Source: Imbricaverruca yamaguchii
Taxonomy: Eukaryota; Arthropoda; Thecostraca; Neoverrucidae
DNA: 64,000 nucleotides
Direction of reading: 5' to 3'
Assembly (NCBI GenBank): GCA_034440575.1
Contig: JAOTOL010001433.1
Location: forward strand, 692,001-756,000
The translations under genes and the position numbers were made by a program. Position 1 is the stretch's first letter. Every line of letters begins with the position of its first letter. Shown piece after piece: positions 1,418 to 53,600 of this stretch. The notes under the pieces are model-generated. The model made no database searches. It saw only the letters and a program-made list of their open reading frames with translations, and was not told where the DNA came from.

Positions 1418-4400
1418 CTGCGGATGTCAGAGGCCGGACACACTCGGGTCAGGCTCAGGTCGTCTGCCGGGTCAGGCTCCGGTCACCTGGCACACGCCAG
1501 ACGCAGGCCATTTGTCACACGTCCAACCCAGATCATCCGGCATGTAACTTCTACCACTCAAGTCACCTGTCGTGTGACCTCCGTCAGACTCGCCACCAAC
1601 AAACACCAGCTCTGTCTGGGCACGGGCGTGAAGGAGAAAAACCCGGAGAACAGCGCTCGTAGCCACGACAAACTATGCCACAAGTGACAACCAAAACGCC
1701 GATCTAAGACATGCTTACACACTGCAACACGTCTCGCACCACCGGCGTTCCCAATCCGTAATCACCACTGCGGTACTTATCTACATCTCCCGTTACCGTG
1801 CTCTCGGACTACACCCCTAAGTGATGCGAACTCGCCGTGGACCGCTGCGGCGTTTTTCTTTCGTGAAAATGGGTGGAAAATACAACTCATTGAAGACAGA
1901 ATTGATACCCATTCTGGAGGGTCTTGACATCATGCTTCTAGGCGTGAGCTTGGGCAGTATGCCACATTTTAGACCGTGGACCAGCCGGGCAACTAAAAAA
2001 GACCGCTGGTCTACTATCAGTCCGAATTCCATTACCGCACACCTATTTTCAGCATCGCACAGCCAACGAAACAACATCCGTTTAACCCTGGCGGGCCGCC
2101 GCCAGTGCGGACAAAGACGCGCTGCACCCTGGTTCTGCCAGCGGTGCAGGGGTGTCTGCGACAGGCGACCGCCAGGGACACGATCGTGTCGGGTGAGGTC
2201 GGCTGACCTTGACGGAGAGGTCGGCCATGTTGTTGTGGCGCGCCTGGTGCTGCACTATGGCCGCCCGCGTGGCGCCTCCCGCCACACCCACCAGGCTCTT
2301 AGCCAGGCCCGACACCACCATGGCTCCCTGGCGGCCAAGGGCGGAACTGTCAGTGCCGTGATCCTACTGCGGCGCATGGTGGAACGGCGAGAAATATGCC
2401 AGGAAGGTAGACAAATGACTAAATATATTGAATGATTGCAATCATACTTCGCAGTTTATGGTATCAACGTACTACTAATGTATTTATGTACCGTGCGAGC
2501 TGACACTGTAGAAATAGTGCCAAGTAGGAGCATGTGAAATATAACAACCATTGAACAAATTCCCCACCATTCAAAGCAGGATAGTATCACCTTGCAGCAG
2601 TTCCACCCATCCACAAACCACTGCGACTTTGTTCTAGACGCCACCCAACATCTAATCTGTGATTCCACCGCGATCTTATTCTCATTCCCACCAGTCCTCC
2701 CCGTCGTGAATTCACATATGCCCACGTGAACTGTCGACCACCCAAACTACGTCGGTGACCTTCAGGCGCGCACCCAGGATTTTTCCATGGGGGGGGGGCG
2801 GACCGAAAAGAGCACTTGGCCGGCTCCAAAAGGGCACTTTGCGGCCCGGGCACACTGGAACGTTTGCTGACCGGGGGGAGCGTGAATTTTCCATGGGACA
2901 CGTTATATCTGATAGCACCGAACCTGGGCAGGGCACGGAGCACTTTTAGATAAAAAGGCACCTAATTGGGACAGGCATAGGACAGCAAATGGCCCAGAGG
3001 AATTCCGTTTTTAGGCCGAAAGCGCAGTTTTGGGCCCAAAGGGCACCTTTAGCACAGGCGGGGCACATAAGGCAGGTGATTTTTGGGATAAATTTGGGAC
3101 ATTCCGGCCAAGAGGGCATTTCCCGTTCAAAAGAACACTTTGGTCTCATGGGGGGAGGGCCGGCCCCTGCCCCCCCTCCGGCGCGCCTATGGTGACCTTA
3201 TCCCCCCAATCTTGCACGTAACCGTTCATGACCATCTCATACCAACCCGTAAACGATGCACGTCCACTGTTACCATTCATGACCCAATCAGCGATCATGC
3301 CCGCGAACTCATCAGGTCACCTGGGACCCCGTGAGCTGCAGCTCAGGGGTGTAACGACTACACAGGTCAAGCAGCGAGACCACGTGAGTGACGCCACTTA
3401 TAACCCTCCCTCATGACCTGCCTATCACCACGTCCGTGGTCTCGCGTCACGGGCAGGCGTGACCTGCCCGTGACCTCGGTCGTGACCCACGGTGAAGTAG
3501 CGCCGCCCGAGGCTGGGTGCCGCCAGCTCCAGGCAGATGGCCGCGTCGTTCAGCACGTCGGCGAACAGGCGCCACTGCTTACAGCGCGCGTCCAGCGCCG
3601 CCGAGGAGCGCCACGCGAACACGATCTGTCCCACCATACTGGTGCCGTCCTGCCGGTCAGGGGAACACACTGTCCTGATGAGGGGAACACGACCTGTCAC
3701 ACCATACTGGTGCCGTCCTGCCGGTCAGATCACGATCTGTCCCACCATGCTGGTGCCGTCCTGCCGGTCAGAACACGATCTGTCCCACCATGCTGGTGCC
3801 GTCCTGCAGGTCAGGGGAACACGACCTGTCCCACCATACTGGTGTCGTCCTGCTGGTCAGGGAACACGATCTGTCCTGATGAGGGGAACACGATCTGTCC
3901 CACCATACTGGTGCCGTCCTGCCGGTCAGAACACGGTCTGTCCCGCCATACTGGTGCCGTCCTGCCGGTTAGGGGAACACGATCTGTCCCACCATACTGG
4001 TGTCGTCCTGCCGGTCAGGGGAACACGATCTGTCCCACCATACTGGTGTCGTCCTGCCGGTCAGGGGAACACGATCTGTCCCACCATACTGGTGCCGTCC
4101 TGCTGGTCAGGAGAACACGACCTGTCCCACCATACTGGTGCCGTCCTGCCGGTCAGGGGAACACGATCTGTCCCACCATAATGGTGCCGTCCTGCTGGTC
4201 AGGGGAACACGATCTGTCCCACCATACTGGTGCCGTCCTGCCGGTCAGGAGAACACGACCTGTCCCACCATACTGGTGCCGTCCTGCCGGTCAGGGGAAC
4301 ACGATCTGTCCTGATGAGGGGAACACGTTTGTCCCACCATACTGGTGCCGTCCTGCCGGTCAGGGGAACACGACCTGTCCCACCATACTGGTGCCGTCCT

Positions 4401-7400
4401 GCTGGTCAGGAGAACACGACCTGTCCACCATACTGGTGCCGTCCTGCTGGTCAGGGAACACGATCTGTCCCACCATACTGGTGCCGTCCTGCTGGTCAGG
4501 GGAACACGATCTGTCCCACCATACTGGTGTCGTCCTGCCGGTCAGGGGAACACGATCTGTCCCACCATACTGGTGTCGTCCTGCCGGTCAGGGGAACACG
4601 ATTGTCCCACCATACTGGTGCTGTCCTGCCGGTCAGGGGAACACGATCTGTCCCACCATACTGGTGTCGTCCTGCCGGTCAGGGGAACACGATCTGTCCC
4701 ACCATACTGGTGTCGTCCTCCCGGTCAGGGGAACACGATCTGTCCCACCATACTGGTGTCGTCCTGCCGGTCAGGGGAACACGATCTGTCCCACCATACT
4801 GGTGCCGTCCTGCTGGTCAGGGGAACACGATCTGTCCCACCATACTGGTGTCGTCCTGCCGGTCAGGGGAACACGATCTGTCCCACCATACTGGTGCCGT
4901 CCTGCTGGTCAGGAGAACACGATCTGTCCCACCATACTGGTGCCGTCCTGCTGGTCAGGGGAACACGATCTGTCCCACCATACTGGTGTCGTCCTGCCGG
5001 TCAGGGGAACACGATCTGTCCCACCATACTGGTGTCGTCCTGCCGGTCAGGGTAACACGATCTGTCCACCATACTGGTGTCGTCCTGCCGGTCAGGGAAC
5101 ACGATCTGTCCCACCATACTGGTGTCGTCCTGCCGGTCAGGGGAACACGATCTGTCCCACCATACTGGTGTCGTCCTGCCGGTCAGGGGAACACGATCTG
5201 TCCACCATACTGGTGTCGTCCTGCCGGTCAGGGGAACACGATCTGTCCCACCATACTGGTGTCGTCCTGCCGGTTAGGGGAACACGATCTGTCCCACCAT
5301 ACTGGTGTCGTCCTGCCGGTCAGGGGAACACGATCTGTCCACCATACTGGTGCCGTTGCTGGTCAGGGGAACACGATCTGTCCCACCATACTGGTGTCGT
5401 CCTGCCGGTCAGGGGAACACGATCTGTCCCACCATACTGGTGCCGTCCTGCTGGTCAGGAGAACACGATCTGTCCCACATACTGGTGCCGTCCTGCCGGT
5501 CAGGAGAACACGGTCTGTCCGCCATACTGGTGCCGTCCTGCTGGTCAGGGGAACACGATCTGTCCCACCATACTGGTGTCGTCCTGCCGGTCAGGGGAAC
5601 ACGATCTGTCCCACATACTGGTGTCGTCCTGCCGGTCAGGGGAACACGATCTGTCCCACCATACTGGTGCCGTCCTGCTGGTCAGGAGAACACGATCTGT
5701 CCCACCATACTGGTGTCGTCCTGCCGGTCAGGGAACACGATCTGTCCCCCATACTGGTGTCGTCCTGCCGGTCAGGGGAACACGATCTGTCCCACCATAC
5801 TGGTGTCGTCCTGCCGGTCAGGGGAACACGATTGTCCCACCATACTGGTGTCGTCCTGCCGGTTGGGGAACACGATCTGTCACCATACTGGTGTCGTCCT
5901 GCCGGTCGGGACACGATCTGTCCCACCATACTGGTGTCGTCCTGCCGGTCAGGGGAACACGATCTGTCACCATACTGGTGTCGTCCTCCCGGTCAGGGTA
6001 ACGATCTGTCCCACCATACTGGTGCCGTCCTGCCGGTCAGGGGAAACGACCTGTCACCATACTGGTGTGTCCTGCCGGTCAGGGGAACACGATCTGTCCC
6101 ACCATACTGGTGTCGTCCTGCCGGTCAGGGGACACGATCTGTCCCACATACTGGTGTCGTCCTGCCGGTCAGGGAACACGATCTGTCCCACCATACTGGT
6201 GTCGTCTCCGGTCGGGTAACACGATCTGTCCCACCATACTGGTGCCGTCCTGCCGGTCGGGAACACGACCTGTCCCACCATACTGGTGCCGTCCTGCCGG
6301 TAGGGAACACGATCTGTCCCACCATACTGGTGTCGTCCTGCTGGTCAGGGGAACACGATCTGTCCTGATGAGGGGAACACGACCTGTCCCACCATACTGG
6401 TGCCGTCCTGCCGGTCAGGGGAACACGATCTGTCCCACCATACTGGTGCCATCCTGCCGGCCGGGGGAACACGATCTGTCCTGATGAGGGGAACACGATC
6501 TGTCCCACCATACTGGTGCCGTCCTGCTGGTCAGGGGAACACGATCTGTCCCACCATACTGGTGTCGTCCTGCCGGTCAGGGAACACGATCTGTCCCACC
6601 ATACTGGTGTCGTCCTGCCGGTCAGGGGAACACGACTGTCCCACCATACTGGTGTCGTCCTGCCGGTTAGGGGAACACGATCTGTCCCACCATACTGGTG
6701 TCGTCCTGCCGGTCAGGGAACACGATCTGTCCCACCATACTGGTGTCGTCCTGCCGGGTCAGGGGAACACGATCTGTCCCACCATACTGGTGTCGTCCCG
6801 GTAGGGTAAACTTGTCCCACCCTGGTGCCGTCCTGCCGGTCGGGAACACGATCTGTCCCACCATACTGGTGTCGTCTGCTGGTCAGGGGAACACGATCTG
6901 TCCTGATGGGGGAACACGACCTGTCCCACCATACTGGTGCCGTCCTGCCGGTCAGGGGAACACGATCTGTCCCCATCTGGTGTCGTCCTGTGGTCGGGGA
7001 CACGATCTGTCTGATGGGGACACGACCTGTCCCACCTACTGGTGCCGTCCTGCCGGTCGGGAACACGATCTGTCCCACCATACTGGTGCCGTCCTGCTGG
7101 TCAGGGGAACACGATCTGTCCCACCATACTGGTGCCGTCCTGCTGGTCAGGGGAACACACTGTCCTGATGAGGGGAACACGATCTGTCCCACCATACTGG
7201 TGCCGTCCTGCTGGTCAGGGGAACACGATCTGTCACCTACTGGTGCCGTCCTGCTGGTCAGGGGAACACGACCTGTCCACCATACTGGTGCCGTCCTGCT
7301 GGTCGGGAAACGTCTGTCCACTACTGGTGCGTCCTGCTGGTCGGGAACACGATCTGTCCCACCATACTGGTGTCGTCCTGCCGGTCAGGGGAACACGATC

Positions 7401-10400
7401 TGTCCCACCATACTGGTGCCGTCCTGCCGGTCAGGGGAACACGATCTGTCCCACCATACTGGTGTCGTCCTCCGGTCGGGAACACGTTGTCCCCCATACT
7501 GGTGCCGTCCTGCTGGTCGGGACCGACCTGTCCCCATACTGGTGCCTCCTGCCGGTGGGACACGATCTGTCCCCATACTGGTGCCGTCTGCCGGTCGGGA
7601 CACCTTTACTGGTGCCGTCCTGCCGGTAGGGGAACACGATCTGTCCCACCATACTGGTGTCGTCCTGCTGGTCGGGCACACTGTCCTGATGAGGGAACAC
7701 GACCTGTCCCACCATACTGGTGCCGTCCTGCCGGTCAGGGGAACACGATCTGTCCCACCATACTGGTGCCGTCCTGCCGGTCAGGGGAACACGATCTGTC
7801 CTGATGAGGGGAACACGATCTGTCCCACCATACTGGTGCCGTCCTGCCGGTCGGGCCCGTGGGGAACACATCTGTCCACATCTGTCTGCCGGTAGGGGAA
7901 CACGACCTGTCCCACCATACTGGTGCCGTCCTGCCGGTCAGGGGAACACGATCTGTCCCACCATACTGGTGCCGTCCTGCTGGTCAGGGGAACACACTGT
8001 CCTGATGAGGGGAACACGATCTGTCCCACCATACTGGTGCCGTCCTGCCGGTCAGGGGAACACGATCTGTCCCACCATACTGGTGCCGTCCTGCCGGTCA
8101 GGGGAACACGATCTGTCCCACCATACTGGTGCCGTCCTGCGGTCAGGGGAACACGATCTGTCCCCTACTGGTGCCGTCCTGCCGGGGGAACACGTCTGTC
8201 CCCCTACTGGTGCCGTCCTGCCGGTGGGGAACACGATCTGTCCCCATCTGGTGCCGTCCTGCTGGTCGGGGACACATCTGCCTACTGGTGGTCCTGTTGG
8301 TCGGGGACCGACCTGTCCCACCATACTGGTCCGTCCTGGGGTCCCACCATACTGGTGCCGTCCTGCTGGTCAGGGGAACACGATCTGTCCCACCATACTG
8401 GTGCCGTCCTGCCGGTCAGGGGAACACGATCTGTCCCACCATACTGGTGCCGTCCTGCTGGTCAGGGGAACACGATCTGTCCCACCATACTGGTGCCGTC
8501 CTACCGATCGGCATGTCGTTACTAAAACGACTTTTCTAAATGAGCTAGATTCACAAGAACGACGCATTCTGAGTTGAAGTACAGACCGTGTTTCGCATAC
8601 CTCAATCCACGACACCATTGGATAAAAATGCTTGGCGGCGACATCATGATTGCGAGCTTAGAACAGGTTCATTTGGTGGTCGCGTACTCGGGAGTGTCAG
8701 ATGTCAGCTGACACTCCCGTCCGGAGATGAAACACGAGCGCGAGAAGCGAGTCGAACCTCGCTTCGCCGCAGCAGAGGAGACCAATCGCGGCCGGTGATG
8801 TGCCAACAGAGCTCTGTTGACAAGCTAACAGACATGTGAATGAGACGGACGGGTACCCCGGGAAGCCCCACCTTCAGCAGCCAGGTGATGGTGGCGGCCA
8901 GTGGTGTGGCCTCGGCGTCGCCGACGCCCATCCCCTGCAGGACGGCGCGTGTGGCGAGCGCTCCGGTGATGCAGCTGCAGAACGCCTGCAGCGTGTCCCA
9001 GATCTGCGGCACACGGTCATCTTCAACTCAATACGCACTGCGCAGCCAGGAGACGAGTGGTCCAGGCGTAAGTTGCTCGACTCACGATCGAAAGGCTGTG
9101 GGTTCGGGTCTCACCTGTCGCTACTCGTCGCCCGCCACCAATCGGCGTAAGGGATTGGCTGGATTGGATTGTGGATTTACGACGCGCTCAGCAGCTGAGG
9201 CCATACAGCGTCGCCTGCCTCTCACCCTGGCAGGAAGGGCGGACATCGCGTGGAATCAAACCCCGTACCTCTGGCTTGCCAGACGCTCAGCTTAACCACT
9301 GAGCTACCGACGCCCGTAAGGGATTGGCGACGCTATATGACTCAGCGGTCGATGTGTCGTAAAACCAACAACCAACCAACCGCTACGCAGCCACTTCCCT
9401 CCAATGTGCAGTCGCTTCTCTGCAGCACGCCATCATTTTTCCTCAGCGCACAGTCACCTCTCCTCAATTCACGCTCACCCCACTGCAATACACCGATATT
9501 TTCCTTCAACATATAATGGCACCGCCTCAGTACACGGGCATCGCTCGTGAATACACCATCACTCTCCTCAATACACCATCCCCCACCCCCATACAGTCGC
9601 TATTTCTGCAATATGCCATCATATCCCTTCAACACACCATCGTCTCCCTCAATACTCCAGTCACCTCCTTCAATACTCCAGTCACCTCCCTCAAATACAC
9701 CACTGTTGCTCTTCGACACATCATCGACCTTCCTCTATATCTCGTCATTTCCCAATACACCGCCACCTTCCTCCAGTCCATAGTTGCCTTTCTTCAATCG
9801 AATTCGCCTTTCCCCGAGACACAGCCACCTTTCCCCGACACCCAGTCTCCTGCAACAAGTCACAGTTCTCTATCACGATGTACCTGGTCGTCAGCAATCT
9901 GTTCGTTGGTTGGTTGGTTATTCATCTTACGACACATCGACCGTTGAGTCATGTAACGCCGCCAATCTCTCACGCCGATTGACCGAAGGCGAATAGTAGC
10001 GACAGGTGACACTCGAACCTACCATCTTTTGATGGTGAGGCAGGCATCTCACCACTGGACTACTCATCAACAGCCATCTGTTTGTGGAACCAAGCACAAA
10101 AACGTATCAAAGGTCAGTCCAGCAGTTCAGCGAGGACATCACCTGATGCCGTGTATCCCGAGTCTACCGACGCGCCGTGTACCAGCCGGTAGGAACAACC
10201 ACTATACAATTTCGGCAGGCCCCAGCCCCCCCCCTCCACCAAAGTGGACATAAGTCACCATATTTTTGGACTTTAGCATGGGATCCTATGGTGTGCTGAC
10301 TCACAACCGTTTCAAGTTCCCTTATTACTTCCATGCACCGGCCCTTCAACTCATTTTGGAAAAGCCCTACTGCTGGATGGTTGGTTATTTGGGCTTAGGG

Positions 10401-12477
10401 GCGCATCGACTAGCCCTACCACTGCTGGCCTGCTGAGACCAAACATCTACTGGTTCATGGATAATGACCAGTGTGTTCAAATTCACAAATTTGAGTGGAA
10501 GACTATGCCTAGCAGAAACAATACACACATCTTCACATCTTCAGCCAATACATTTTGTTTTTGCTTGCATGTTTACAATCCTACCTCAGTTGCATCCAAG
10601 ATATCGTGATATGTGAAATGCACCTGACATTAGTCTCCTTCAGTTTCAAATCTTGGTAGTGAAGATGTGCAACTGCAGAGAACTGGAAGTGCATCTTCGG
10701 AGATCACGCGACAAAAATCACATCAGGCGAGCCCACTGAACCATACATCTTGAAACCCCACCACGTTTCGCTATGATGTTCCAAGCTCTGATTCATTCTC
10801 CAAGAAGTAGACCCATTGCATAAATATCTGCTTTTGCCAGCTTTATCGCAATTTGTCAAGCACTTGTTATCTCAGATCAAAGAGGGGCTTCGGCATTGCG
10901 TGAGACGAAATGTACGACCCTCACTATACCAGGAGGTGCTGAGTTTACATCAAAAGTAACGTAGTAAAGTTCTCTCCTGACGATGGCTCCTGGCCGAAAC
11001 GTTGAGTAATATAGCATAATCCCTAACGTTACTTCTGATGTAAACTCAGCACCTCCTGGTATCTTGAGGGTCGTACATTTCGTCTCACACAATGTCTAAA
11101 ACCCAGGAGCACTTAAGAGCCATTCTTCGTTGTATTAAACAGGGGCTCTGGCTGCACATCGGCACCTGCCCGGCTTGCCAGGCACATCACACAACCGCAA
11201 TTGATCGCCGGTCGGCGGCTTGGCTCAGCCTGTAGCGAGTCGTGGCGTTGTTATCCGAACGTTCTTCCTCTGAATTGAAAGAGGCGAGAGCAAACGGATC
11301 ACTTTTCGAGGAAACCGCCTGTTTCAGAGGTTATAGTGTTCGAACCTGGGCAGTACGGCGTTGAACCTGAACGCAGCTGAGCCACCATTTCACGGCAGGA
11401 GTTCAGAGTGTACACGCAATCGGTCACTGCGAGGATTACCGATGGCACCGATGTCTAGAGGTCGTATGCTCGGCGGCCGAACCCACGGTCTTCGCTTGAG
11501 TACACCCACATCGCGAGTACACCCACATCGCGAGTCATTTCACCCACATCGCGAGCTAAGTACACCCACATATCAAGTTAAGTATACCCACATTTGGTTA
11601 GTACACACATCGGAGTTAAGTACCCCACACGCGAGTTAAGTACACCCACATCGCGAGTCATTTCACCCACATCGCGAGCTAAGTACACCCACATATCAAG
11701 TTAAGTATACCCACATTATGAGTTAAGTACACCCACATCATGAGTTAAGTACACCCACACTGCGAGTTAAGTACACCCACACTGTGAGTTAAGTGCACCC
11801 ACATCGCGAGCTAAGCACACCCACATCGCGGGTTAAGTATACCCACATTACGAGTTAAGTAGACACACATCGCGAGTTAAGTACACTCACATGGCGAGTT
11901 AAGTACACCCACATCGAGTCAAGTACACCCACACTGCGAGTTAAGTACACCCACACTGTGAGTTAAGTGCACCCACATCGCGAGTTAAGTGCACCCACAT
12001 CGGGAGTTAAGTACGCCCGGGGCGGGATGGCCGAGTGGTTAAGGTGTCAGGCTCAGAGTACCAAAGGTCCCGGGTTCGACACTGGCGCCGCTCAGAACAT
12101 TTCCCAATCCCACGGCCCACTGGCGAAACAGTGTGGGTGGCGCCATTAGCCGTGAATGTGCATAAAGTGCGTCGTGAGCCACCCAATAAACAAATACACG
12201 AACGAGTCAAGTACACCCAAATCCCGAGTCAAGTACACCCACGTCGCGAGTCGACGATCCCACGCTCGCCGCTCACCTGGTACTCGAGGTAGTCGTCGCT
12301 GACCGACGACGGGTAGTCTCGCGGCAGGAACACCTCACACAGGGTGTCGACCAGCGCGCGCCGCCGGGTCGGCTGTCGACGGAGCACGAGCGCGCTGTTG
12401 CCGTCGCCGTCGCCGTCGCCCAGCTCCAGCGTCCCCTCCAGCGAGTCGCCCAGGTACTGGTGGATGGCCACCGCCAT
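719..12477 (-). CDS. RUSF1: RUS family member 1 (RUSF1/C16orf58 orthologue), five-exon gene
   Basis: The exons, in transcript order, are 12477-12277, 9003-8872, 3649-3491, 2327-2208 and 1417-719. All junctions are phase 0 with GT-AG borders and give 436 codons plus a stop, close to the vertebrate protein (about 470). I recognise the family from ordered conserved blocks: EVFLPRDYPSSVSDDYLEYQ (exon 1), WDTLQAF and TRAVLQGMGVG (exon 2), CKQWRLFADVLNDAA (exon 3), VAGGATRAAIVQHQARHNNM (exon 4) and LHVFTNYRAVRAV (exon 5). RUS/DUF647 proteins are predicted membrane or organelle proteins. Plant members act in UV-B and auxin-related responses; the animal role is not established. The gene is head-to-head with PRELID3B. 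Its oddity is intron 2, which carries about 4.9 kb of tandem repeats that copy the exon 3 acceptor. Identification is firm, biochemical function unknown. Confidence 0.93.
1418..2207 (-). other. RUSF1 intron 4
   Basis: This intron runs from a GTCAGC donor below 2208 to a CCGCAG acceptor above 1417. I see no recognised element in it. The stretch at 1821-2070 has open frames on both strands, but neither resembles a known family. Confidence 0.6.
2208..2327 (-). CDS. RUSF1: RUSF1 exon 4
   Basis: Forty codons from GAMVVSGLAKSLVG to HNNMADLSVK, the most conserved part of the RUS domain (VAGGATRAA, QARHNNMADLS). The acceptor is GGCCGCCAG before GGAGCC. The donor is AAG followed by GTCAGC. Both borders are phase 0. 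Confidence 0.93.
2763..3191. mobile_element. hAT-type MITE in RUSF1 intron 3
   Basis: This 429-bp non-coding element is flanked by an 8-bp target-site duplication, GTGACCTT, at 2755-2762 and 3192-3199. The ends are inverted: the left begins CAGGCGCGC and the right, read in reverse complement, begins CATAGGCGCGC. An 8-bp duplication and CA-starting ends are typical of the hAT superfamily. The interior has poly-G runs and no transposase. Confidence 0.75.
3491..3649 (-). CDS. RUSF1: RUSF1 exon 3, boundary of the splice-site minisatellite
   Basis: Fifty-three codons from DGTSMVGQIVFAWRSSAALD to SLGRRYFT. The acceptor is CTGACCGGCAG before GACGGC, and the donor is ACC followed by GTGGGT. The first 33 bases of the exon (residues DGTSMVGQIVF), together with the last bases of the intron, are the sequence that is tandemly repeated through 8512. 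The exon itself is the last, diverging copy, since after GTGTTC it continues GCGTGG instead of returning to CCCCTGAC. Confidence 0.93.
3619..8512. repeat. 46-bp minisatellite derived from the RUSF1 exon 3 splice acceptor
   Basis: About 4.9 kb of head-to-tail units, basic period 46 bp (for example unit starts at 4021 and 4067), roughly 100 copies. Read on the minus strand each unit contains CCCCTGACCGGCAG, the intron end, then the exon 3 start encoding DGTSMVGQIVF. Recurrent variants are GCCGTCC/GTCGTCC and CTGCCGG/CTGCTGG. Short units carry CTGATGA in place of the middle (near 3678, 3878, 4312, 6367, 6483, 7155, 7800, 8005). From about 5700, and most strongly at 6780-7690 and 8130-8345, units have many small deletions. 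Absence of plus-strand stops creates long open frames with a three-phase repeat peptide. They have no start or splice context and are not genes. Confidence 0.97.
8513..8871 (-). other. RUSF1 intron 2, unique part
   Basis: This is non-repetitive intron between the exon 2 donor (AAG then GTGGGG, at 8871 downward) and the start of the array. No element is recognised. Confidence 0.6.
8872..9003 (-). CDS. RUSF1: RUSF1 exon 2
   Basis: Forty-four codons from IWDTLQAFCSCITG to AATITWLLK. The acceptor is GTGCCGCAG before ATCTGG, and the donor is CTGAAG followed by GTGGGG. It is strongly conserved with the family (W-D-x-x-Q-A-F, then a Gly-rich helix GMGVGDAEAT). Confidence 0.93.
9052..9381 (+). repeat. 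tRNA-Val-like SINE, split by a later insertion
   Basis: The head (9052-9118) carries a Pol III A-box-like stretch and a B-box-like GGTTCGGGTCTC, followed by the family body with CACCAATCGG. The copy is interrupted at 9159-9314, and its tail (ATTGGCGACGCTATATGACT...GTGTCGTAAAACC) resumes at 9315. It lies in RUSF1 intron 1. Confidence 0.85.
9159..9314 (-). mobile_element. Second tRNA-derived SINE nested inside the first
   Basis: This 156-bp insertion is bounded by a perfect 13-bp target-site duplication, CGTAAGGGATTGG (9146-9158 and 9315-9327). On the minus strand it starts with a tRNA-like head: A box TAGCTCAGTGGTTAA, B box GGTTTGATTCC. It ends with a GACGCT...GCGTCGTAAA tail related to that of its host SINE. 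Confidence 0.85.
9383..9860. repeat. Degenerate CT/CA-rich minisatellite
   Basis: Imperfect repetition of an about 20-bp motif such as CTCCAGTCACCTCC and CAATACACCATC. It is best ordered at 9640-9720. No coding features. Confidence 0.7.
9904..10070 (-). repeat. tRNA-Val-like SINE
   Basis: Minus-strand copy of the family at 25255-25414. The tRNA-like head is at the high-coordinate end and the tail GTCGTAAGA...AACCAACCAAC at the low end. It is flanked by the near-perfect duplication CAGCAATCTGTT / CAGCCATCTGTT (9892-9903 and 10071-10082). Confidence 0.85.
10071..10893. other. RUSF1 intron 1 segment, mostly unassigned
   Basis: AT-balanced unique sequence. It includes one reverse-oriented LINE/SINE hairpin-tail fragment at about 10376-10420 (reads as GTCGATGCGCCCCTAAGCCC then AAATAACCAACC on the minus strand). 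Nothing else is recognised. Confidence 0.5.
10894..11094. repeat. Foldback element with hammerhead-like core
   Basis: Two arms of about 69 bp (10894-10962 and 11026-11094) are nearly perfect reverse complements. Between them lies CTGACGA (10977-10983), a GGC/GCC mini-stem, and GAAAC (10996-11000), with ACGTT (10999-11003) complementary to AACGT (11025-11029). This has the order of a hammerhead ribozyme core. Similar CTGAnGA...GAAAC blocks are known near Penelope-like elements. A reading frame through it is only the palindrome. Confidence 0.6.
11508..12252. repeat. 22-bp minisatellite in RUSF1 intron 1
   Basis: Tandem units of about 22 bp with core GAGTTAAGTACACCCACATC, more than 20 copies at 11508-12018. 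A few more occur at 12200-12252 after an inserted SINE. It ends 24 bp short of the exon 1 donor at 12276. Confidence 0.95.
12019..12199 (+). repeat. tRNA-Ser-type SINE inserted in the minisatellite
   Basis: The head GGATGGCCGAGTGGTTAAGG resembles a class II (Ser/Leu) tRNA A box. GGTTCGACACTGG is the B box. The body is the same as at 40453-40634 and the tail is AATAAACAAATA. It splits the 22-bp array, so it arrived after the array formed. Confidence 0.88.
12277..12477 (-). CDS. RUSF1: RUSF1 exon 1 (start of coding)
   Basis: Sixty-seven codons starting MAVAIHQYLGDSLEG and ending VSDDYLEYQ. The ATG sits in a strong context, GGCACCATGG. It has an acidic GDGDGDG stretch before the conserved block LCEVFLPRDYPSSVS. 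The donor is CAG followed by GTGAGC (12276 downward). An upstream non-coding exon is possible. Confidence 0.85.
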
Positions 12478-15218: not shown

Positions 15219-18200
15219 GTAAGTTTCTGATGGCTTACCTCTATCTTGTGCCTTCGTGGCGTGGTTTTCATTTTAGGGAAGCTGCGTCGAAAACGTAGGT
15301 AGTGAGCTTTCCACCTTTATGAAATAAATTCGATATCTGAGAATTGTTATTTCAAACATTGTGATGTGTATGAATTAAGTAAAGTGTTGTCATTAAATTT
15401 GGAGATCAAGGTAAAATTTAATTCTTTGTAGATCGTTTCAATGCGATTTTCCTTGATGTGAGTACGATGCGACCATTGATTTTCTCCGCAAATGATTACT
15501 TTTAAGTCAACGACGATCGGTATAATTGATGAGGGCATAAGCAAGATACTAAAGAAATGGAATGGATAATTTTTCCTTTAAGTTTTCCAACTTATAAAGA
15601 CCTAAACTAACAGCCTAACCAAATCTACCTCATTGGTTTTGTTTACGAAGGCAGATGCATGCAAATTTTTTTATTTTTACCACCTTAAAGCACAATAATT
15701 CCAGAATCCTTCCAATTTTTTCACAACAATTTTTACAGTGATAATTTTGTTTTTGTTTTGTTTTTGTTTTGTTATCATTTTCATTTACTTCAAAAGCAGC
15801 TTAGGTTGGGTTAGGTTATGTCAGGCTTTGTTAGGTTCTTTTTTAATTTTAATAACTCAAAATAAATTGTTTAACATTTTTCTCCTGATATTTTTGGATG
15901 TTTTGTTTCTAAGGTGTTAGGTCAGATTAAGTTGCAGTTCTATTATATTTTTCATTTCTTTTTATGCTGTGTACTAACTCAAAGCATTTTGGCATTATTT
16001 TCCTCACAACCTGAAAAGTAAGCATTTGCACAGAAATAAGTGGTCCCATCATCTTTGTTACCTTCATATACATTGTATTCCAAAGAAAAATTGTGTAAAA
16101 ATACACATTTGAAGACAAATCTACTGACCATGCTAGGTTAGTTTAGTTTGATGCATAAATTTGTGCTGTAAGCTGTTGTAGGAATTCTTGGAATTTGCCT
16201 TACCAGTATCATTTTTGAATGCAACTGAGATGCTTGGACCACCCATTTTCTGTACAAATACTTTCTTTGCAGTTTGTGGACAATATAATCCCAAAAAGGG
16301 TATTACAGTTTAGGGTACCTATGAGACAAGTTTTGCACATATTTGATCTCCATCAAGCATACTAATTGGTTGGTTTGGTTTAGGTTAGGTTAGGCTTTTG
16401 TTTAAGTTCAAATTGTTTCCCCCCCCCCCCCCCAAGGGTTACATTAAGAAAATGCACCTTTTTCACTTTGAAAAAAAAAATGTTGGCCTTGGCTTGGATA
16501 TGCTGTTGGTTTTAAAAATTTGTGATTTTTTTCAAGATAAGATTATGTCAACATTTTCGTCTTAAAATAATGCTTCCATGGAAAATATTCTCCCATGGAA
16601 GTTTAGCCTATGTTAGGTTATGTTGCTATTTTTCTTTTTTGGGAACATATTTGATCTTATATTACCCAATTCCAAGCCCCTTTTCTGGGTGTTATTGCTC
16701 CTCATAACTGAAAAGTGTGCACTTTAGTATGTTGGGTAACATAGCAAAGAAAGTAATGTTTAAAAATATAATAAAATGCAACATGATGCAACCTAACCTA
16801 ACCAAGCATAACCTCCCTTTGGTAGAAATCAAATATGAGGTTGACAAAGCTTTCAAACATTTCAGGTTCTTAACATCTTTTCACATGAAAAACTATGTAA
16901 CAGAATAACATAGCATAACATAACAGAACTTGCTTTTGAAAAAAGAGTTCTATTTCAATATTCCTACACTTTAAAAAATTATAACTTAGCCTAACCAACC
17001 ATAATCCATTTGTTCATTTTAAGAAGCAAAACAAATATATAATAAATAAGTGTAAAGCTTGTCTTGTGAAAACTTTGAAGCATGGTATGCAATTTTTTGC
17101 TTGTAACAACATGTTTTACTTGTAACAGTCTGAAGAGGCCATATGGGCCAAGTAGCAGATCGTCTCTGGTTGGTGGCATGTACTCTGGCCCAGCGCCTGC
17201 CAGCCAGGGTCAATTGGTGGGCGGCGCTATAGTGCGGTAGGAGTGCCTCTCCCGGCCGTGCGGAGGTGTCGCCTGTCCTGTATAGCTCTTCAGCTTCCCC
17301 GGTAGGTCCCCTGTGTGGTGGGGTATGACAAGGAGCTGAACACAGGCTCCACAACAGGTTTCACACCATATGCAAGCAAATAGCATCCAGAGGCAAATTT
17401 CGCTAATATCACAAGCTTCACGCCGAATTCGGTGTGAATACACAGCTTGTGATTTTAGCGAAATTGGACAGGCTCAGACGATAATAATAAAACACTTTGT
17501 ACACACAGACGTGAGCTGGTCGGAATAGAGGAAAGGTAATAGTGCCAGTGCTATTCTAGCCATTACGGCCACCCGCCCATCTGACATGTACTGGGTATAA
17601 TATGACCACCATGGTCGATGCACCCTAAAGCCCAAATAAGTAGCTAACCAGCTGCCATTGCGGTCCCCAACACACCTACTCACGGACTCCTGTGCCACGC
17701 CCCGGCTGCCGCCATCTGACCCGCTGACCGCCAGCTGACCCGCTGACGCTGACCCACTGATGCTCAGTGTAAAATGTGACCATGTGGCCTGGAAATTCAC
17801 AGTTAATGGAATTGTGTATTTCATCCTTGTCTTAGGTTTTTACCATTTTGCTACATGTGTGGGCAGTCATTATACATACGATTGCTAAAAAATGTAAAAT
17901 GCATGTGACTGAAGTGAAAGGCATTCTGCCTTTTTAATCCTTCAGTGGTGATCCTTTATTTTCTTCCAATCTTTCACTATTCCCAAGCAACTTCTTTCTT
18001 CATCCACACAGTTAATGGTGAAGTAATTTTAGGACAGTGCTGACGCTGACCCGCTGACCTGCTCCGTCCCGCAGCCACTCGTGGGAGACGGTGACGCAGG
18101 CCGCCTGGCGCAAGTACCCCAACCCGATGAACCCGGCCGTGGTGGGCATCGACGTGCTGGAGCGGCGCGTGCAGGCCGGCCGGCTGCTGACCGACCGCCT

Positions 18201-21200
18201 CATCAGCTCCAAGTGGGGTATCCCCGGCTGGGCGGCGCGCCTCATCGGCTCGCCCAACGTCTGCTACGGCTTCGAGCGCTCCACGGTCGACCCGGCCGCC
18301 CGCTGGATGGAGCTCAACACGAGAAACGTGGGTGCCGCCGCTTGCGACCTTGTGCCGCCGCTCGCTCACGAGGACGCGCTAGATTGCTAGATCCATTCAA
18401 CACCCTTAAGCGTAATGTTCTAGAGCAGTAACGAGGGAACGTGTCGGCCTCAACTCCAATGGTTGCGGAAATCAAGCCAGGCACATCGTTTATCGTTTCG
18501 AATATTAAAACCTGCTGGTGACTGTGGCATCGGGGGTCCATTAACGTTCGCGGAATGGTGCCATGCCCTGCCGAATCGTGAGTGGTGGGCGGTCGGTGGC
18601 GTTCCGGCCGTCTATGGTGAATGAAGGTCAGAAAATAGTTCCAGAAGACAATACGCAAGGTGACAATATGCGCAATATATCTCTGTATGTGGCAATGGGA
18701 TTGACCGTGGCCGGGATAGTTCAGTTGGTGGAGCGTCGGACTTTTGGTCGCAAGATCGTGGGTTCGAATCTTACAACCGACGGGATTTGCCGAGTCCACC
18801 CGCGACCAATCGGCGTGAGAGGTTGGCGACGCTTTATGACCCAGCGATTGAATGCGTCGTAAAAGACCCAATGTACGTATGTATGTATTCGATGAAATTG
18901 ACATCTGACGGTAAGCTAACTTTCATAAATGCCATTCGCATCATACTTTATGGAGACAAGGTCGCATAAATTGTAGCTACTACTATTAACTACTATTATA
19001 TACTAAACTACTACCATTATTCGCTCACATACTAGTGAGCATCCGGGTGCGTTTGTTGCGAACGCATATTTGAGTTCTTGAATGACATCGGGAGCCTACC
19101 TGTTTTCTGTGTTTGCTGGCGATCCCCGATGTCCGCACGAGCATCGCGTCTGACGCCCGGCGGGATGCCGACCAACACCGGCCACGTCGTGCCCTCCTGA
19201 TCACCACTGCACCGGACCAGTATCTTGGTGGTTATTGGCTTTACGACACGTCGACCGTCGAGTCATGTAGCGTCGCCAATCACTCACGTCGATTGGTCGC
19301 GGGCGAATAGTAGCGGCAGGTGAGACTCAAACCCACAATTTTTCGATCGTGAAACGGGCAACTCACCCCTAGCCTACTTACTCGTCCTCCCGGGTCAACA
19401 TCTGCTGCATGACCGATGTAGTCGATGCGCCCCTAAACTCCAATAACCCGGGTCAGCATCTGACGACGTTCCGTGGCCGCAGATCACGTTCGGCACGAGC
19501 ATCTCGGTGGACGAGCGACTGGTGTACTCCCCCCACCCGGAGGACTCGTCCCGGACGCTGCTGCGCCAGGAGGCCGTGGTGACTGTCCGCGGCGTGCCGC
19601 TCACCAGCTACATGGAGAGCATCCTCACCGGCGTCATCTCGTCCAACGCCGGCAAGGTGGGTGGCCGCCGCCGCCGCCGGTGGAGCCTGTCGGGGCCGGG
19701 TCTTCCCCGTGACGACTCTGCCGCGTCCGGAGCGGACTTGTGCTCGACTCGAGTTGGGTCGAGAATCGACTCGTGAATCGATCGTTTTCGGATGGGTCGC
19801 GAGTTGAATCGATTCTTTTCCCCAAAATATATCTTGAGTCGTGAGTTGAATCACATCTTTTTTTGAAAAATGAGTCGAATCATGAGTCAATCATTCAAAT
19901 ATGTGTGGGCAGTGTACACTGAATCATATGGCTCATGAGTCTGATACCACTGAGTCGGATCTGAATCGATTAAAATATATGTCAGTCTGTTTGAGTCGCG
20001 AGTCGAATCAGATCTCAAGATCTATGAGTCACATGTGAGTCGACTAAAAAAATTTTAGTCGAGCACAAGTCTGGTCGGGAGATGGGCTTGTGTTGAGGTG
20101 TTGAGTCTTAAAGGCTAAGGGGAGGTAGAAAAAAACGAAGTTACCCATGTACGCAGACAATGAAATTGATGTATATGCTAATGAGCCTCAGGTGTTTCGC
20201 ATTAAACGTGCATTTGGTGTTCATAGCACACCAGTTCCTGTTTTTTTTTTTTTTGTAGCATTCCTGTATATCATGCATATAGTTATATGATAAGAGATAC
20301 ATGTACATTCGAAGTAAATAATGTCCCAGCTAACAGTGAAGCCACACTCTTATGTAAAAAATGCGTGTCTTTTCCAATTGTCCCACGTGTTTCCACTAGA
20401 GTTGGAAAATGTAGAGACAAAGCTCGGGGTCAGCAATCCCGTTCAAGACCGTCGAGTTTTTTTAGCTCGTCTCTGTAGCTTTTGCCGGGTCTTATGCAAG
20501 CTTATAGCAAAAGATCACAACAAAACAAAATATTAACGTATTGTGACGTAATCTAATTATCATCGTAGTGTCGAACGTGGCCTACTATTCCACGTGGCAT
20601 TTCATGGTTTGCGGTAAATATTGATATCAGAATCAAATTTTGAACTTCTATTATGGTCGAGGGTTATCCCCTCTTGGCTACTTCTCTCCGTTTTTTCTCT
20701 CCTTTTTACTTTACACAGAATTCTCACAAATACAGATGTTCACAGCCCAAGTCACCTTGACCTACGTCCAAACAACGCCAAACGACCACTTATCCCATAG
20801 GACCGCGGTATTTCTGTAGTCAAGGCAACCACGTGGGCCAACAAACACAACTCATCCCTTTGATGATGAGCGCACCCGCGGCTCCCCGCCATTTTTAGCA
20901 GCGGCGGATGTGTGGTATATTCAGAGCACTTGTGTCCGATATTTAAGAACTATTGGCCAAATTCGGTTCATACCTACCTACATTGTACATAAACCAAGAC
21001 TATTACAAATAGCGACCCTCCCAAATTATCGCGGCCTGTGTCAAGGTGCATGCTTACTTATCTATATTGCACAATCATCGAAACTTAAAACTGGTGGTGT
21101 GCCCAATTTTTGCTGCTTTGGGGAAGCGTGGGCGCGTCCCACCTGCCTGCGTCAACATAGGACAGACGCCCAAACTTAAAATTTATCGGTAAGCCATCAC

Positions 21201-21773
21201 ATTTTTTGGAGAACTGTTCATTCCCGATGTGCTGACAATCGCCAGTTCGTGGGGGCCCATGGTTGCTTAAATCTATAGGTCAATTTAAAAGGATGCGGCC
21301 AGAAGTGCGTCGGCTATGCCACTCACAGGATACATAACAAATTAATATCAGAATCAAGTTTCAGCCTTTCCAAATTTCGAGACTTTCCAAAGTTGCATAC
21401 TTTCCAAATTTACAGACTTTCCTAATTTCCTGACTTTCCAAATTTACAGACTTAAAATTTCCGCGGATGAACGTTGCATTCCACGTTGCCTCTCCGGACA
21501 GACGAAGCACCGCGCGTGACACGACCACGTCTCGGCCGACAGGGTCGAGAGGCGATGGAGTGGGTGATCGGCAAGATCAACCAGGAGGTGCAGGAGCTGG
21601 CGGCGGCCACGTCGGCCGCCGTCAAGACCACCGACGAGCTGCTGGCCACGGCCAAACACTCGGTGGACGGCATCGCCGAGCGCGCGCGCCAGCTGGGCCA
21701 CCTGACCGACGGCATGACCGTCAAGGCGCAGGAGCTGCCGCTCGGCGAGGCCGCCGGCCGGCGACCGTTGTGA
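15187..21773 (+). CDS. PRELID3B: PRELI domain-containing protein 3B / slowmo (PRELID3B) orthologue, four exons
   Basis: The exons are 15187-15218, 18075-18327, 19483-19656 and 21543-21773, with phases 2, 0, 0 at the junctions, totalling 229 codons. The N-terminus MKIWTSEHVFNHSWETV, then KYPNPMNPAVVGIDVLERRV, ISVDERLVYSPHPED and GREAMEWVI are signatures of the PRELI/MSF1 domain of SLMO/PRELID3 proteins. In the known family this protein pairs with TRIAP1 in the mitochondrial intermembrane space and shuttles phospholipid (phosphatidylserine for PRELID3B) between membranes. The protein is somewhat longer than human PRELID3B (194 residues) because of an extended helical C-terminus. Exon 1 was found by its exact match to the conserved start peptide and a GTAAGT donor. 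Introns carry SINEs and a hAT-type MITE. Confidence in identity is high. Confidence 0.95.
15219..18074 (+). other. PRELID3B intron 1
   Basis: AT-rich, with several TTAGG-type runs (15800-15836, 16379-16397, 16613-16622, 16791-16804), a poly-C run near 16420, a nested palindrome at 17395-17465, and a diverged hairpin-tail fragment at about 17590-17645 ending TAAAGCCCAAATAAG. No additional exon is recognised. Confidence 0.7.
17395..17465. repeat. Nested inverted repeat (cruciform-like)
   Basis: Outer arms of about 22 bp (AATTTCGCTAATATCACAAG / CTTGTGATTTTAGCGAAATT, one indel) enclose an inner near-perfect 20-bp palindrome TCACGCCGAATTCGGTGTGA at 17418-17437. Confidence 0.8.
18075..18327 (+). 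CDS. PRELID3B: PRELID3B exon 2
   Basis: The exon runs from CCACTCGTGG after the CCCGCAG acceptor to ACGAGAAAC before GTGGGT. It encodes HSWETVTQAAWRKYPNPMNP through VDPAARWMELNTRN, the first half of the PRELI domain. Confidence 0.95.
18704..18870 (+). repeat. tRNA-Lys-like SINE
   Basis: The head GGGATAGTTCAGTTGGTGGA (A box) and GGGTTCGAATCTT (B box) lead into the body GCCGAGTCCACCCGCGACCA and the tail GGCGACGCTTTATGACC...GCGTCGTAAAAGA. It lies in PRELID3B intron 2. It lacks a paired acceptor stem and so is not a tRNA gene. Confidence 0.85.
19228..19388 (-). repeat. tRNA-Val-like SINE
   Basis: Minus-strand copy of the 25255-25414 family in PRELID3B intron 2. The head is near 19385 and the tail TTTACGACACGTCGACCG near 19240. 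Confidence 0.85.
19405..19446 (+). mobile_element. 42-bp tail-only retro-insertion
   Basis: A 42-bp segment consisting only of the hairpin tail (CTGCATGACC...GTCGATGCGCCCCTAAAC then TCCAATAA). It is flanked by the 16-bp duplication CCCGGGTCAACATCTG / CCCGGGTCAGCATCTG (19389-19404 and 19447-19462, one mismatch). It sits 20 bp before the exon 3 acceptor of PRELID3B. Confidence 0.8.
19483..19656 (+). CDS. PRELID3B: PRELID3B exon 3
   Basis: Fifty-eight codons, ITFGTSISVDERLVY to GVISSNAGK. The acceptor is GTGGCCGCAG, the donor is AAG followed by GTGGGT, and both ends are phase 0. It covers the second half of the PRELI domain. Confidence 0.95.
19733..20073. mobile_element. hAT-type MITE rich in GAGTCG repeats
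   Basis: A 341-bp element whose ends are inverted: GGACTTGTGCTCGACT on the left and AGTCGAGCACAAGTCTG on the right. It is flanked by GTCCGGAG / GTCGGGAG (19725-19732 and 20074-20081, seven of eight). The interior repeats GAGTCG/CGAATC variants and has no coding capacity. It lies in PRELID3B intron 3. Confidence 0.72.
20082..21542 (+). other. PRELID3B intron 3, remainder
   Basis: No exon or assignable element. A short homopurine/homopyrimidine run (T stretch near 20242) and repeated CTTTCCAAATTT-type phrases at 21364-21450 are present. Confidence 0.6.
21543..21773 (+). CDS. PRELID3B: PRELID3B exon 4 (terminal)
   Basis: Starts GGTCGAGAGGCGATGGAGTG after CGACAG, encoding GREAMEWVIGKINQEVQEL, and ends EAAGRRPL with TGA at 21771-21773. 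After the conserved helix the C-terminus is a long Ala/Glu-rich helical tail absent from the shorter vertebrate protein. Confidence 0.94.
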   Translation, partial: GREAMEWVIGKINQEVQELAAATSAAVKTTDELLATAKHSVDGIAERARQLGHLTDGMTVKAQELPLGEAAGRRPL

Positions 21774-22645
21774 GCGTCGCCCCGCCTAGGCCAGCTTCGA
21801 ATTCGCCCGGCTCGGCCGGGCGGTAGTCTAGTGTGCAGCGCGGGACGCGTGGCGCCGCCGCGAGGTGGCGACCCGCGCGTCGATGGCGCGTGTCCGGTGT
21901 TGCCATAATGCGTCACGGCGGGGTGGCGTGCGTCGGCGTTTTGCTTTCTTGTACGGGCTGTCGACCGCGTGATATCTTGCCGTGATTAGGCATGAGTGAA
22001 TGTACAAAATATGGGCAGGTTAAGTTGGCGGTGATCGTGACATTTTGTGACGTTTGTACCCTGAGCTGTGACCTGGGAATGTGTGTTGCGCACGTTTTTA
22101 CCGTCGAAAGATAGATTCTTTGAGCACCCTCTATATAAAGATATGTTCCATGAGCATCCTATATAAAGATATATTTCATGAGCATCCTCTATATAAAGAT
22201 ATATCCTATGCGTACCACATTCTATGAGTATTCTATGAGCATGGTGGGCAGCGATTTTGAATTACCTTCAGATTTTCTCTTTGCTTCTTTGCTTTCCTGT
22301 CGCTGGCCGTAGTCCCCCCAGCGATGGTTGTTGTGGAGTATCTGCCAGTGATGTCACCATGTGGGTACGACGGAGACGACTGACCACAGGCGTGCCGACC
22401 GACGTGCCGAGCCCACATGCAATTTACGCCGCCTCGTGCCGCTCAAAGGGAGAGTGCGTTTTGGAGTGAGGTGTGCTTGCTCGCGACGTACACAGGAATG
22501 GATGGAGGTGGCATGTATCCCGTGTACATCGATGAGAATTGAGTGCACCCCTCGTTCATCAGTGGCAAGCTTAGCCCGCATGCGTTCACGGGTGAACAAG
22601 CTATCCACCGATGGGGACGGGGGCGTCCTGCATCCTGTATCCACT
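21774..22645. other. Region downstream of PRELID3B
   Basis: Presumably includes the PRELID3B 3' UTR, but no AATAAA is evident close to the stop. A four-copy tandem repeat of about 30 bp (core CTCTATATAAAGATATAT) lies at about 22119-22210. No gene is seen. Confidence 0.55.
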
Positions 22646-50600: not shown

Positions 50601-53600
50601 GGGAATATCAATTTGATGGTCCATACCATGAAGGCAACGCCTTTATTTTCAAGAATAGATGGCTGTCACAGTATTTGTGCACGGGCGTTGCGATGAAGCA
50701 TGATCAAGAACAGTTTCATTTGCCGCGGAAACTTATTGGGCCAGGGCAGGACCGTATACCATGTGTTCTGTGCTTAATGTCCAGCAAATCTTACCTAAGT
50801 CATCCCAATCTAAGCCGAACAATTATTAATGGCGTAAGCTACACCTTCGGATGTTGGATGGCGCAAAGCCAATGCTAGCACATAACAAACTAACATCAGC
50901 TAGCTCCAACAATTTTTGATATTGTGAAGCCTACACATATTGATGTTGATTGCCTAAAGCTTGTGGTAATCGGCAATAAACTAGCCTAACCTAGCCCCAT
51001 GATTTATGATGACATCAAACTTGAACCTACAGACGATGTATGGAATGAAACCGATACCTACGTCTGTCGCAGAGCATAACATCTGAAATTTAATGCAAGC
51101 AGACCTAAGCAAACTCCGACAATTTGTAATGCCCAGACACATACTCGTACGAATATTGGGTAACATACAATCCAAGCCAATTGTGCCAAAGGTTGGATGA
51201 TGTGGAACTTACACCAACGGATGTTCGATCACACTAAGCCTGCGCCTTCCGATGTTGGATCACACGCGACAAATATACATCAGTGGCGATGACAGGTCCG
51301 TGTTTGTCATAGTTTGCAGTCTTCCTTGGCTCGGTACCAGAGAAATTCTTGCCTTTCATCTCAGGAATACATAATGCGTCGATGTTTCCGACGGAGCCTC
51401 TGGGTTTGTCGCACAATTAACGGGCCTTCTTAGCTCTTTTGAAGTGCCTGCTGCGTCGCAAGTGAGTCGAGATCAGCAAAGTGAATACCACACTGATGCG
51501 GCCGGGGTTCCACCGTTGATGGTCAAAGCCCCCTCTGTCCTTCCCGCCCGGTTTCAGCCCCTCCCCATCTACCTCGAAATCCCCACCTCTCATTCCCCAT
51601 CCGCTATCCAACCTACGCTCACCCACCTCCACAGGGTTAAAATATTGGCTTTTCGTTAGGTGTGAAATGTCTAATCAAGCACAGTAGGATATCGAAATTT
51701 GACATCGATTTAGTGTCATTTAAGATGCTTTTCATGTCTTTCAGACTCAAATTTAAACCAATGGTTTGGGAATTTATGATTGTACCGTTGCGATGTGTTT
51801 GTAGGTATTGTATACCATATCGCATCATAGATAATCCAGAAACCTGAATTTGCGTTGCGAAATGCTCGTGTTTCGAGAGCACGAACATGACTTATAAACA
51901 ACATACTGTTAGAAAGGAAACACGAGGACTTCATAAGCACGCATCAATGATCAGGATGTCGATTGGTATTCAGCAACTGGTATATTTCACCTTCCACGAA
52001 TAATTTATCATTGCACCTCCACCTCCAAGCCCAGCCTCCCTCCAGAATTATCAACGTAATTATCTGCTGAATTCCCAGCCAGCACGCCATTACCAATGGC
52101 CGGGAAGTCCACCTACGGCTCCCTCCAAGATACTTGTACCCTGATGTGTTGTCAAGTATACGGTTAAAATGTCAGCGAGCATCGAATTAAACGTATGGTA
52201 AGCTGAGGGTTTTAAAGCCAGCACTAGGACTGTGGAGGTCCTTAAGCCGGACACAACGACGGTGGGAAGTAATACTCTGCCGATTGAGGATAGGTCGTAC
52301 CTTCGCGACACATGGCTACATACTGACCGGTGATGAACGACCTTTATGCCCACGCTGTTCGGACCCGCTTACCGTGTATCATGTTTCGGTAGGTTGTGTA
52401 CTTTTCGAGCCACTTCCACGCCAAATTTCAGGACAGCTGGACGCCGACATTACTTTGCATACGCCAATAGAGACACTACTCTGGAGTCGTGACGTCTGGG
52501 AACATTTTTACCTTCCTTCAACAAGCACGCTTTGATGTTGTATATCGCCGCTCGTGAGGATTATTTATTACTGACTGCTGTGGGAGCATGATATATTCTC
52601 TGTAAACACAGTTATGGGCGCAACATGATCTTGGCAGTCGACGCGCCCCTAAGCTCCAATTCATCATCATGTTTCTGATAGTTAGCCTCCAACTCATTGG
52701 CTGTAAGCGATAATCCGTGGTATGATTCGATTGCACACAAAACCCCATCATGCCCCAGTCGTTATCCTTCCTAATCTCGTACCGACATGTAGCTGCCCAC
52801 GTTCGCCCCAACAACATGGGTAAAACAATGATGCAAAACGATAATGTAACAGCTGTTATGGATGGTAGGAGTTGCTGATGATCAAGTGGTGGCACGTATC
52901 AATGACTCAGTACCAACTAATCTGGAGACGCGAACCCGAGGCACCAAAAATGTAACGTCCAGATTTACTTGTCTGCGTAGCCTTACGTACCGGAAAAAAA
53001 GACATCATCGGAGCGTAATCATGGCCTGAATGAACGTCAACGTTCTGCATTAGCACTAATTTAAGTGAAATACACAAACTAGATAAGATGTCGATTAACT
53101 GCAATATCATTCGCGTAAATAACCAAAAGGGATGCTTTTCATGGATGGATGTACAAAATATGTACAATAATAGCTTGGACAAAATAGCACCTTAGTAATC
53201 AACTTAGAGTGAAACGTTGTTTTTAAAGAAATGGAATGAAAAAGTATGCAAGGATTGCTGGCTCGGTGGTGGCACATTTTTGTCGCAAGATACTTGGCAC
53301 GAGCGGCCGAGGGCGGGCTGCCCGCCTGTCGGCCGAATGGTGTGGGTTCGAGTCTCCCAGTGGCTCTTGGCCGGACACCAATCGCCGCCGGAGATTCACG
53401 ACGCCATGTGACCAAACAGTCGATGCGTCACGAAGCCAACACCCGACCGACGAGCGTTCGTTGGGCCGCTGGGTGGCAAAGTGTCGACGCCGACAAGCGT
53501 GCCTGTTCTGTTTCGGTTTAGTGAGGGCGTGCCGACTTGTTCCAGGCGGGTGACATTCTCCAGCGAGACAGTGGAGGCGACCGGCACCGCCGCCGCCACC

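Follow-up and report, generated by a model that had tools for sequence, protein, structure and literature searches.

How can a transcript find the correct 3' splice site of an exon when dozens of copies of that site stand before it? This question is raised by the RUSF1 gene in a 64,000-nt stretch of the barnacle Imbricaverruca yamaguchii (assembly GCA_034440575.1, contig JAOTOL010001433.1, positions 692,001 to 756,000; hereafter the window, whose own coordinates are used throughout), where a minisatellite built from the junction of intron 2 and exon 3 fills most of the intron. We consider it likely that this array is a minisatellite of the 'mirage' type, that is, a tandemly repeated intron/exon boundary of the kind known from amphioxus, which grew by repeat turnover and is tolerated since exon definition picks the acceptor nearest the exon 3 donor.

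In gene orientation, the array runs from 8506 to 3617, with its final unit inside exon 3 itself. Most units are 46 bp long and consist of GACGGCACCAGTATGGTGGGACAGATCGTGTTC (33 exon bases) and CCCTGACCGGCAG (13 intron bases); the exon part is the coding start of exon 3, DGTSMVGQIVF. When aligned with wraparound to the 46-bp unit, the array falls into 116 pieces, of which the first is just 6 nt long; 10 pairs of pieces form a recurring composite, which leaves about 105 units. The alignment thus agrees with an initial reading of the letters alone (the sequence-only reading), which had described about 100 tandem copies of this junction directly upstream of exon 3 and the same 33 coding bases in each. 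With a slash marking the junction, there are 94 exact AG/GACG sites, of which 93 are decoys and one, at 3649, is the true acceptor. Another 11 sites read AG/GACAG; composites account for 10, and the remaining one, at 4625, is an ordinary junction in variant form. AG dinucleotides between 8506 and 3650 number 363. An array comprising 4.9 kb of a single unit is not chance. A search of the assembly of 767,457,503 bases in 1,430 contigs, of a type that skips very common words, found no other copy of the array: all 10 matches lie in the RUSF1 array.

Two patterns of variation bear on whether the units are under selection. The acceptor A is substituted in 0 of 104 pieces with a base at that position and the acceptor G in 0 of 100; because many other unit columns are also free of substitution, this invariance is not evidence of selection. 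At unit column 5, a Gly to Asp change is present in 43 of 103 pieces. The units are therefore not maintained as protein, and selection on them as coding sequence is unsupported. By eye, the unit core CACCAGTATGGTG is a near palindrome, and the composites are dimer-like, with two deletions and one junction lost. The composite recurs at 3650-3717, at 3850-3918 and in eight other pairs, with loss of one decoy junction and of the hairpin-like core.

RUSF1 lies on the minus strand and was modelled by homology as five coding exons with phase-0 joins and 436 codons without a stop (Table 1). Its 1,311 coding bases hold no frameshift, and every modelled intron begins with GT and ends with AG. The protein carries PF04884 at residues 38-275 (303.7 bits, E=1.3e-90 in Pfam), covering most of its length, and PF24160 at the C-terminus (residues 283-436, 43.6 bits), and thereby belongs to the RUS family. 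Its closest relatives are those of barnacles, with 65% identity over the whole length in Amphibalanus amphitrite and 70% across 68% of the query in Pollicipes pollicipes. At the start of exon 3, all 10 aligned relatives have K, then D (nine) or S (one), then G; K111, just before the unit-coded residues, and G113, M116, I120 and F122 are invariant across the 11 alignment rows (RUSF1 and the 10 relatives). This conservation supports the exon 3 border at 3649, and with it the earlier assignment of the 5' border to a point within the unit. No second RUSF1 copy or array-free haplotig was found among the 13 best candidates scored in the genome, where the five matches were the five exons described here. 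A second minisatellite, with a 22-bp unit in about 23 copies, lies in intron 1 (11498-12018); by eye its unit resembles the sequence just past the exon 1 donor, and no coding part was seen in it.

Table 1. Features of RUSF1 and of its junction array in window coordinates, with a slash at splice junctions.
Feature	Position	Strand	Details
RUSF1 coding exon 1	12277..12477	-	67 codons, ATG start; donor CAG/GTGAGC
RUSF1 exon 2	8872..9003	-	44 codons; donor AAG/GTGGGG
RUSF1 intron 2	3650..8871	-	5,222 nt, of which the array (8506-3650) makes up 93%
TAGTAAC branch-point-like motif	8518..8524	-	only TA[GC]TAAC in intron 2; presumed to have been the ancestral branch point
Most upstream junction	8468..8512	-	gccgatcggtag/GACGGC, exon base 8500; presumed ancestral 3' splice site
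Junction-spanning minisatellite	3617..8506	-	about 105 units; 93 decoy AG/GACG acceptors and the real one
Last composite unit	3650..3717	-	68 bp, abutting the real acceptor on its upstream side; lacks one AG/GACG junction and the GTATGGTG core; carries CTCAT
RUSF1 exon 3	3491..3649	-	53 codons; opening 33 bases (3649-3617) form the array's final unit; donor ACC/GTGGGT
RUSF1 exon 4	2208..2327	-	40 codons; donor AAG/GTCAGC
RUSF1 exon 5 and stop codon	719..1417	-	homology model

The far end of the array points to how it arose. The intron end gccgatcggtag occurs at just one of the 94 junctions, the most upstream one, and the branch A of the TAGTAAC motif sits 19 nt ahead of the first unit's exon base, within 365 nt of unique intron sequence upstream of the array. 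This far end, 4.85 kb from exon 3, probably holds the ancestral 3' splice site. A tandem duplication would by accident have included the 3' splice junction of exon 3 and then expanded by ordinary repeat turnover, displacing exon 3 by that distance, and the copy adjoining exon 3 would have taken over as acceptor. Such a chance origin on a splice junction is plausible. In a sample of 12 stretches of 10 kb (L009-L020, including three from the contig of the window), minisatellites with a period of at least 10 and at least three copies occupy 13,362 of 120,000 bases (11%), with one array longer than 2 kb (L010, 5436-7767). Since minisatellites are this common in the genome, it is unsurprising that one should land on a splice junction. 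On barnacle minisatellites themselves, none of the literature matches listed was on point by its title.

An array of this kind is not without precedent, although the sequence-only reading had taken it to be undescribed. The founding paper on mirages reportedly appeared in Nucleic Acids Research in 2002. In amphioxus they are reported for Adh3, the globins Gb6 and Gb9 and troponin C, with PGBD5 similar, in the accessible parts of two papers (PMC3087553, PMC3902484). As far as the same parts describe them, mirages share with the RUSF1 array a minisatellite-like tandem duplication, a unit made of an intron end and the start of the next exon (in Gb6) and an authentic exon in last place, and many of their units, though not all, retain splice signals able to give aberrant transcripts (PMC3087553, PMC3902484). 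By its letters, the RUSF1 array matches the amphioxus type on all four features tested: the unit straddles an intron/exon boundary in a coding gene (13 intron and 33 exon bases of RUSF1), the authentic exon at the array's end is intact (exon 3 is open and conserved), many units keep usable splice dinucleotides (94 AG/GACG), and boundary units escape homogenisation, as judged at the upstream boundary only. The scale differs. Gb6 is reported to have either 3 or 6 units, each 150-160 bp long, and Adh3 a unit of 10-72 bp (PMC3087553, PMC3902484), whereas RUSF1 has about 105 units, mostly of 46 bp, with 93 decoys before a single exon, in a crustacean.

Three other systems invite comparison. The variable number tandem repeat (VNTR) in intron 18 of human ABCA7 likewise has a unit containing the splice signal of the neighbouring exon and reaches kilobase scale, with a 25-bp unit and one allele of 9,711 bp; it repeats a donor, with no coding part mentioned in the accessible portion of the report, whereas the RUSF1 array repeats an acceptor together with coding bases (PMC5954066). 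Introns born from tandem arrays, as in the Rogers model, also involve intragenic tandem duplication with splice signals. Such introns are said to have been treated by Zhuo et al. in 2007 and by Gao and Lynch in 2009. Unlike them, the RUSF1 array did not supply a new intron, as far as its layout indicates: because unique intron sequence with a branch-point motif lies upstream of the array, intron 2 probably predates it. Recursive splicing, or ratchet points, resembles the RUSF1 array in having acceptor and donor close together, such that stepwise removal is possible, according to the accessible part of one account (PMC8605326). Unlike at ratchet points, the donor in the RUSF1 unit lies 15 nt inside, and a juxtaposed AG/GT is found at only 19 places in the array. 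The literature search, outside which most subscription papers lay, found among the matches listed no coding junction in about 105 copies and no barnacle mirage. New to us are the crustacean case, the 93 decoys and the branch-point motif at the far end; the kind itself was already known.

What would happen if a decoy were used? All 93 AG/GACG decoys, when read from the phase-0 join, reach a stop, and each stop lies within the array. The stop comes after exactly 12 codons (DGTSMVGQIVFP and then the stop) for 42 decoys, within 13 codons for 49 and within 25 for 56; the other 37 read further, to a maximum of 206. Standard units thus bear out the expectation of a stop within about 13 codons, with termination after 12 in 41 of 41 decoys that open a gap-free 46-bp unit. 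Units with insertions or deletions do not, as single-base deletions shift the frame in many other decoys. Since the unit-coded residues are conserved in RUS proteins, a working protein needs the acceptor at 3649 or an in-frame detour.

We propose that exon definition would supply this choice. With long flanking introns (5.2 and 1.2 kb), exon 3 would be recognised as an exon, and the acceptor nearest its donor, at 3649, would beat the AG/GACG decoys farther away; leakage would at most yield a graded share of RNA that is spliced to decoys, contains a stop and is degraded. The distance from acceptor to exon 3 donor is 159 nt for 3649 and 227 nt for the nearest AG/GACG decoy, at 3717, behind which the next ones lie at 3760 and 3803. 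In the accessible part of a survey of alternative sites, the sites closest across the exon were preferred when flanking introns were large (PMC9225289). Given exon definition, RUSF1 would survive without any function of the array, and the array itself probably has none. Exons 3 and 4 both follow the array; exon 3 shares 77-85% identity with two barnacle orthologues, and exon 4 shares 78%. The sequence-only reading had offered a splicing trap, a dosage control, or tolerance because the last site is chosen; by inference, the last is the best supported of the three.

Can local signals instead account for the choice? Exon bases identical to the 33 of the true site are present at 23 of the 93 decoys, five of which are also identical for 19 nt upstream. 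Such near-identical local sequence implies that much of the discrimination should come from farther away. The pyrimidine content of the true site (0.69) equals that of exons 4 and 5, and that of the first decoy (0.44) is like that of exon 2. Concealment of the decoys by RNA structure is unsupported: a five-unit fold is no better than shuffled sequence (z -1.06), and the predicted accessibility of the true AG is mid-range, with 46 of the 93 decoys lower or equal. The true exon start (+1 to +6) is less accessible than that of 90 of 93 decoys, the reverse of what concealment of the decoys requires. From -20 to -4, the true site surpasses most decoys in openness, 85 of the 93 being lower or equal.

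Several observations weigh against a choice by exon definition alone or against tolerance of the array. Upstream identity with the true site stays below 20 nt in all 93 decoys, and the unit preceding the true site is a composite, which contributes a branch-point-like CTCAT with its A 30 nt before the exon. Local signals may therefore help the true acceptor. The nine other composite pairs, however, precede no true exon. An AG/GACAG at 3674 lies just 184 nt away from the donor of exon 3, and that donor looks weak against what we take to be the consensus, which is bad for exon definition. Finally, exon 5, likewise downstream of the array, is just 58-60% identical to its barnacle orthologues, and exon 1 is 52% identical.

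In a different account, the array is a splicing trap with dosage control: its decoys, or proteins bound to it, would divert a large and length-dependent share of RUSF1 pre-mRNA into stop-containing or exon-3-skipped forms, such that array length sets the protein level. We judge this unlikely. It would gain from the stops that follow all 93 decoys, and from the position of the most upstream decoy, which has the only TA[GC]TAAC motif and is transcribed first. It also gains, at the expense of simple tolerance, from human ABCA7, where lengthening of the VNTR accompanies lower expression and exon 19 skipping rises with length, as far as the accessible part of the report goes (PMC5954066). In that same part, retention of one VNTR unit is about 2% and independent of length (PMC5954066), and splicing is reported as normal despite the amphioxus mirages in what is accessible of those papers (PMC3087553, PMC3902484). 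A single allele is known here.

Could the array instead have newly broken RUSF1 in this lineage, its intact frame reflecting only recency? The far-end branch-point motif, if used together with the first AG/GACG, would kill the message, and GC-rich exons easily stay open by chance, as the long antisense open reading frames across exon 5 illustrate. The uninterrupted coding sequence and the consistent GT...AG introns argue otherwise, as do the conservation of RUSF1 from crustaceans to mammals and the lack of a second copy among the candidates scored in the assembly, and we regard a broken gene as improbable.

It is still more improbable, in our judgement, that the array is an assembly artefact and that its length in the animal falls far below or far above the length in the contig. 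Small deletions (at most 3 nt) number 116, against three units with insertions, and 94 of the 116 lie in pieces 1-65. The 28 of 115 pieces with at least two such deletions show no excess of substitutions (6 of 964 bases versus 22 of 3,357, on few events). The small deletions are, on this pattern, most likely consensus error; old age as the cause of the deletion-rich units is unsupported, substitutions not being raised on those few events. Against an artefact, no exact repeat within the array reaches 150 bp, so a looped assembly is unlikely, and the 42 units of 46 bp include 14 distinct types. The column 5 variant is clustered along the array, with 34 switches against a shuffled mean of 50.2 (4 of 5,000 shuffles were as low); columns 8, 25, 34 and 42 show no clustering in the same test. 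No second allele was found in the single assembly. That the animal has an array of this type is near certain; the exact copy number is not reliable.

The least credible proposal is that decoys correct themselves, an acceptor and the donor 15 nt inside the unit (ATG/GTGGGA) yielding an in-frame 15-nt microexon (DGTSM or DDTSM), with a further splice leading on to the true exon 3: although 71 of the 72 AG/GACR...ATG/GTGGGA cassettes, one of them in the true exon, are 15 nt and in frame (38 DGTSM, 31 DDTSM and 2 others), and GTGGGN donors are modelled in two of four RUSF1 introns and seen by eye in the neighbouring PRELI-family gene, exons of 15 nt are difficult to define, an in-frame length is a one-in-three chance, and the unit donor lacks the A at -2 and the T at +6 of what we assume to be the consensus. 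Scarcely less remote is a bolder form, in which the array would be a functional microexon bank: co-transcriptional use of decoys, corrected by the internal donor, would give RUSF1 proteins with zero, one or more DGTSM or DDTSM inserts at a conserved site, and array length would set isoform mix and dosage.

Do other genes carry such junctions? Open reading frame (ORF) rows crossing minisatellite ends number 70, of which 43 are in the 12 sampled stretches and 27 in the window. Among the 22 frames scanned with Pfam (20 from the stretches and two from the window), no coding junction was seen, which is weak evidence, with unscanned rows and genes unknown to Pfam remaining. The scan returned one weak match below cut-off (DUF2345) and a frame with RanBP-type zinc fingers. 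The latter, at 53412-56849 on the plus strand, is open for 1,146 codons with five fingers (PF00641) and, by eye, FG-rich repeats; we take it to be nucleoporin-like (NUP153-like). Its arrays at 56018-56148 and 56512-56612 lie inside the open frame, towards the end of it. The PRELI-family gene (18058-21790, plus strand; PF04707, E=1.8e-26 on 18058-18387) shows, by eye, additional exons starting at 19483 and 21543 and two GTGGGT-type donors. Its 17-bp array (21362-21453), placed ahead of an exon, was rejected as a mirage, as it stops by eye about 90 nt before the acceptor. In L015 (6256-7986), a 39-bp repeat of about 45 copies lies in open frames of about 680-700 codons; its unit contains AAG/GTG and CGCAG/A by eye, and may belong to a repetitive protein or carry both splice signals.

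Duplication of a 3' splice site is a classic experimental test of acceptor choice, and the RUSF1 array is its natural extreme form. Since its 93 acceptors share much local signal with the true one, the acceptor used would tell between choice by branch point, by scanning to the first AG and by pairing across the exon. The array is also an assembly-sensitive site at which gene annotation could err. As a likely mirage, it would extend to crustaceans a kind of element known from amphioxus.

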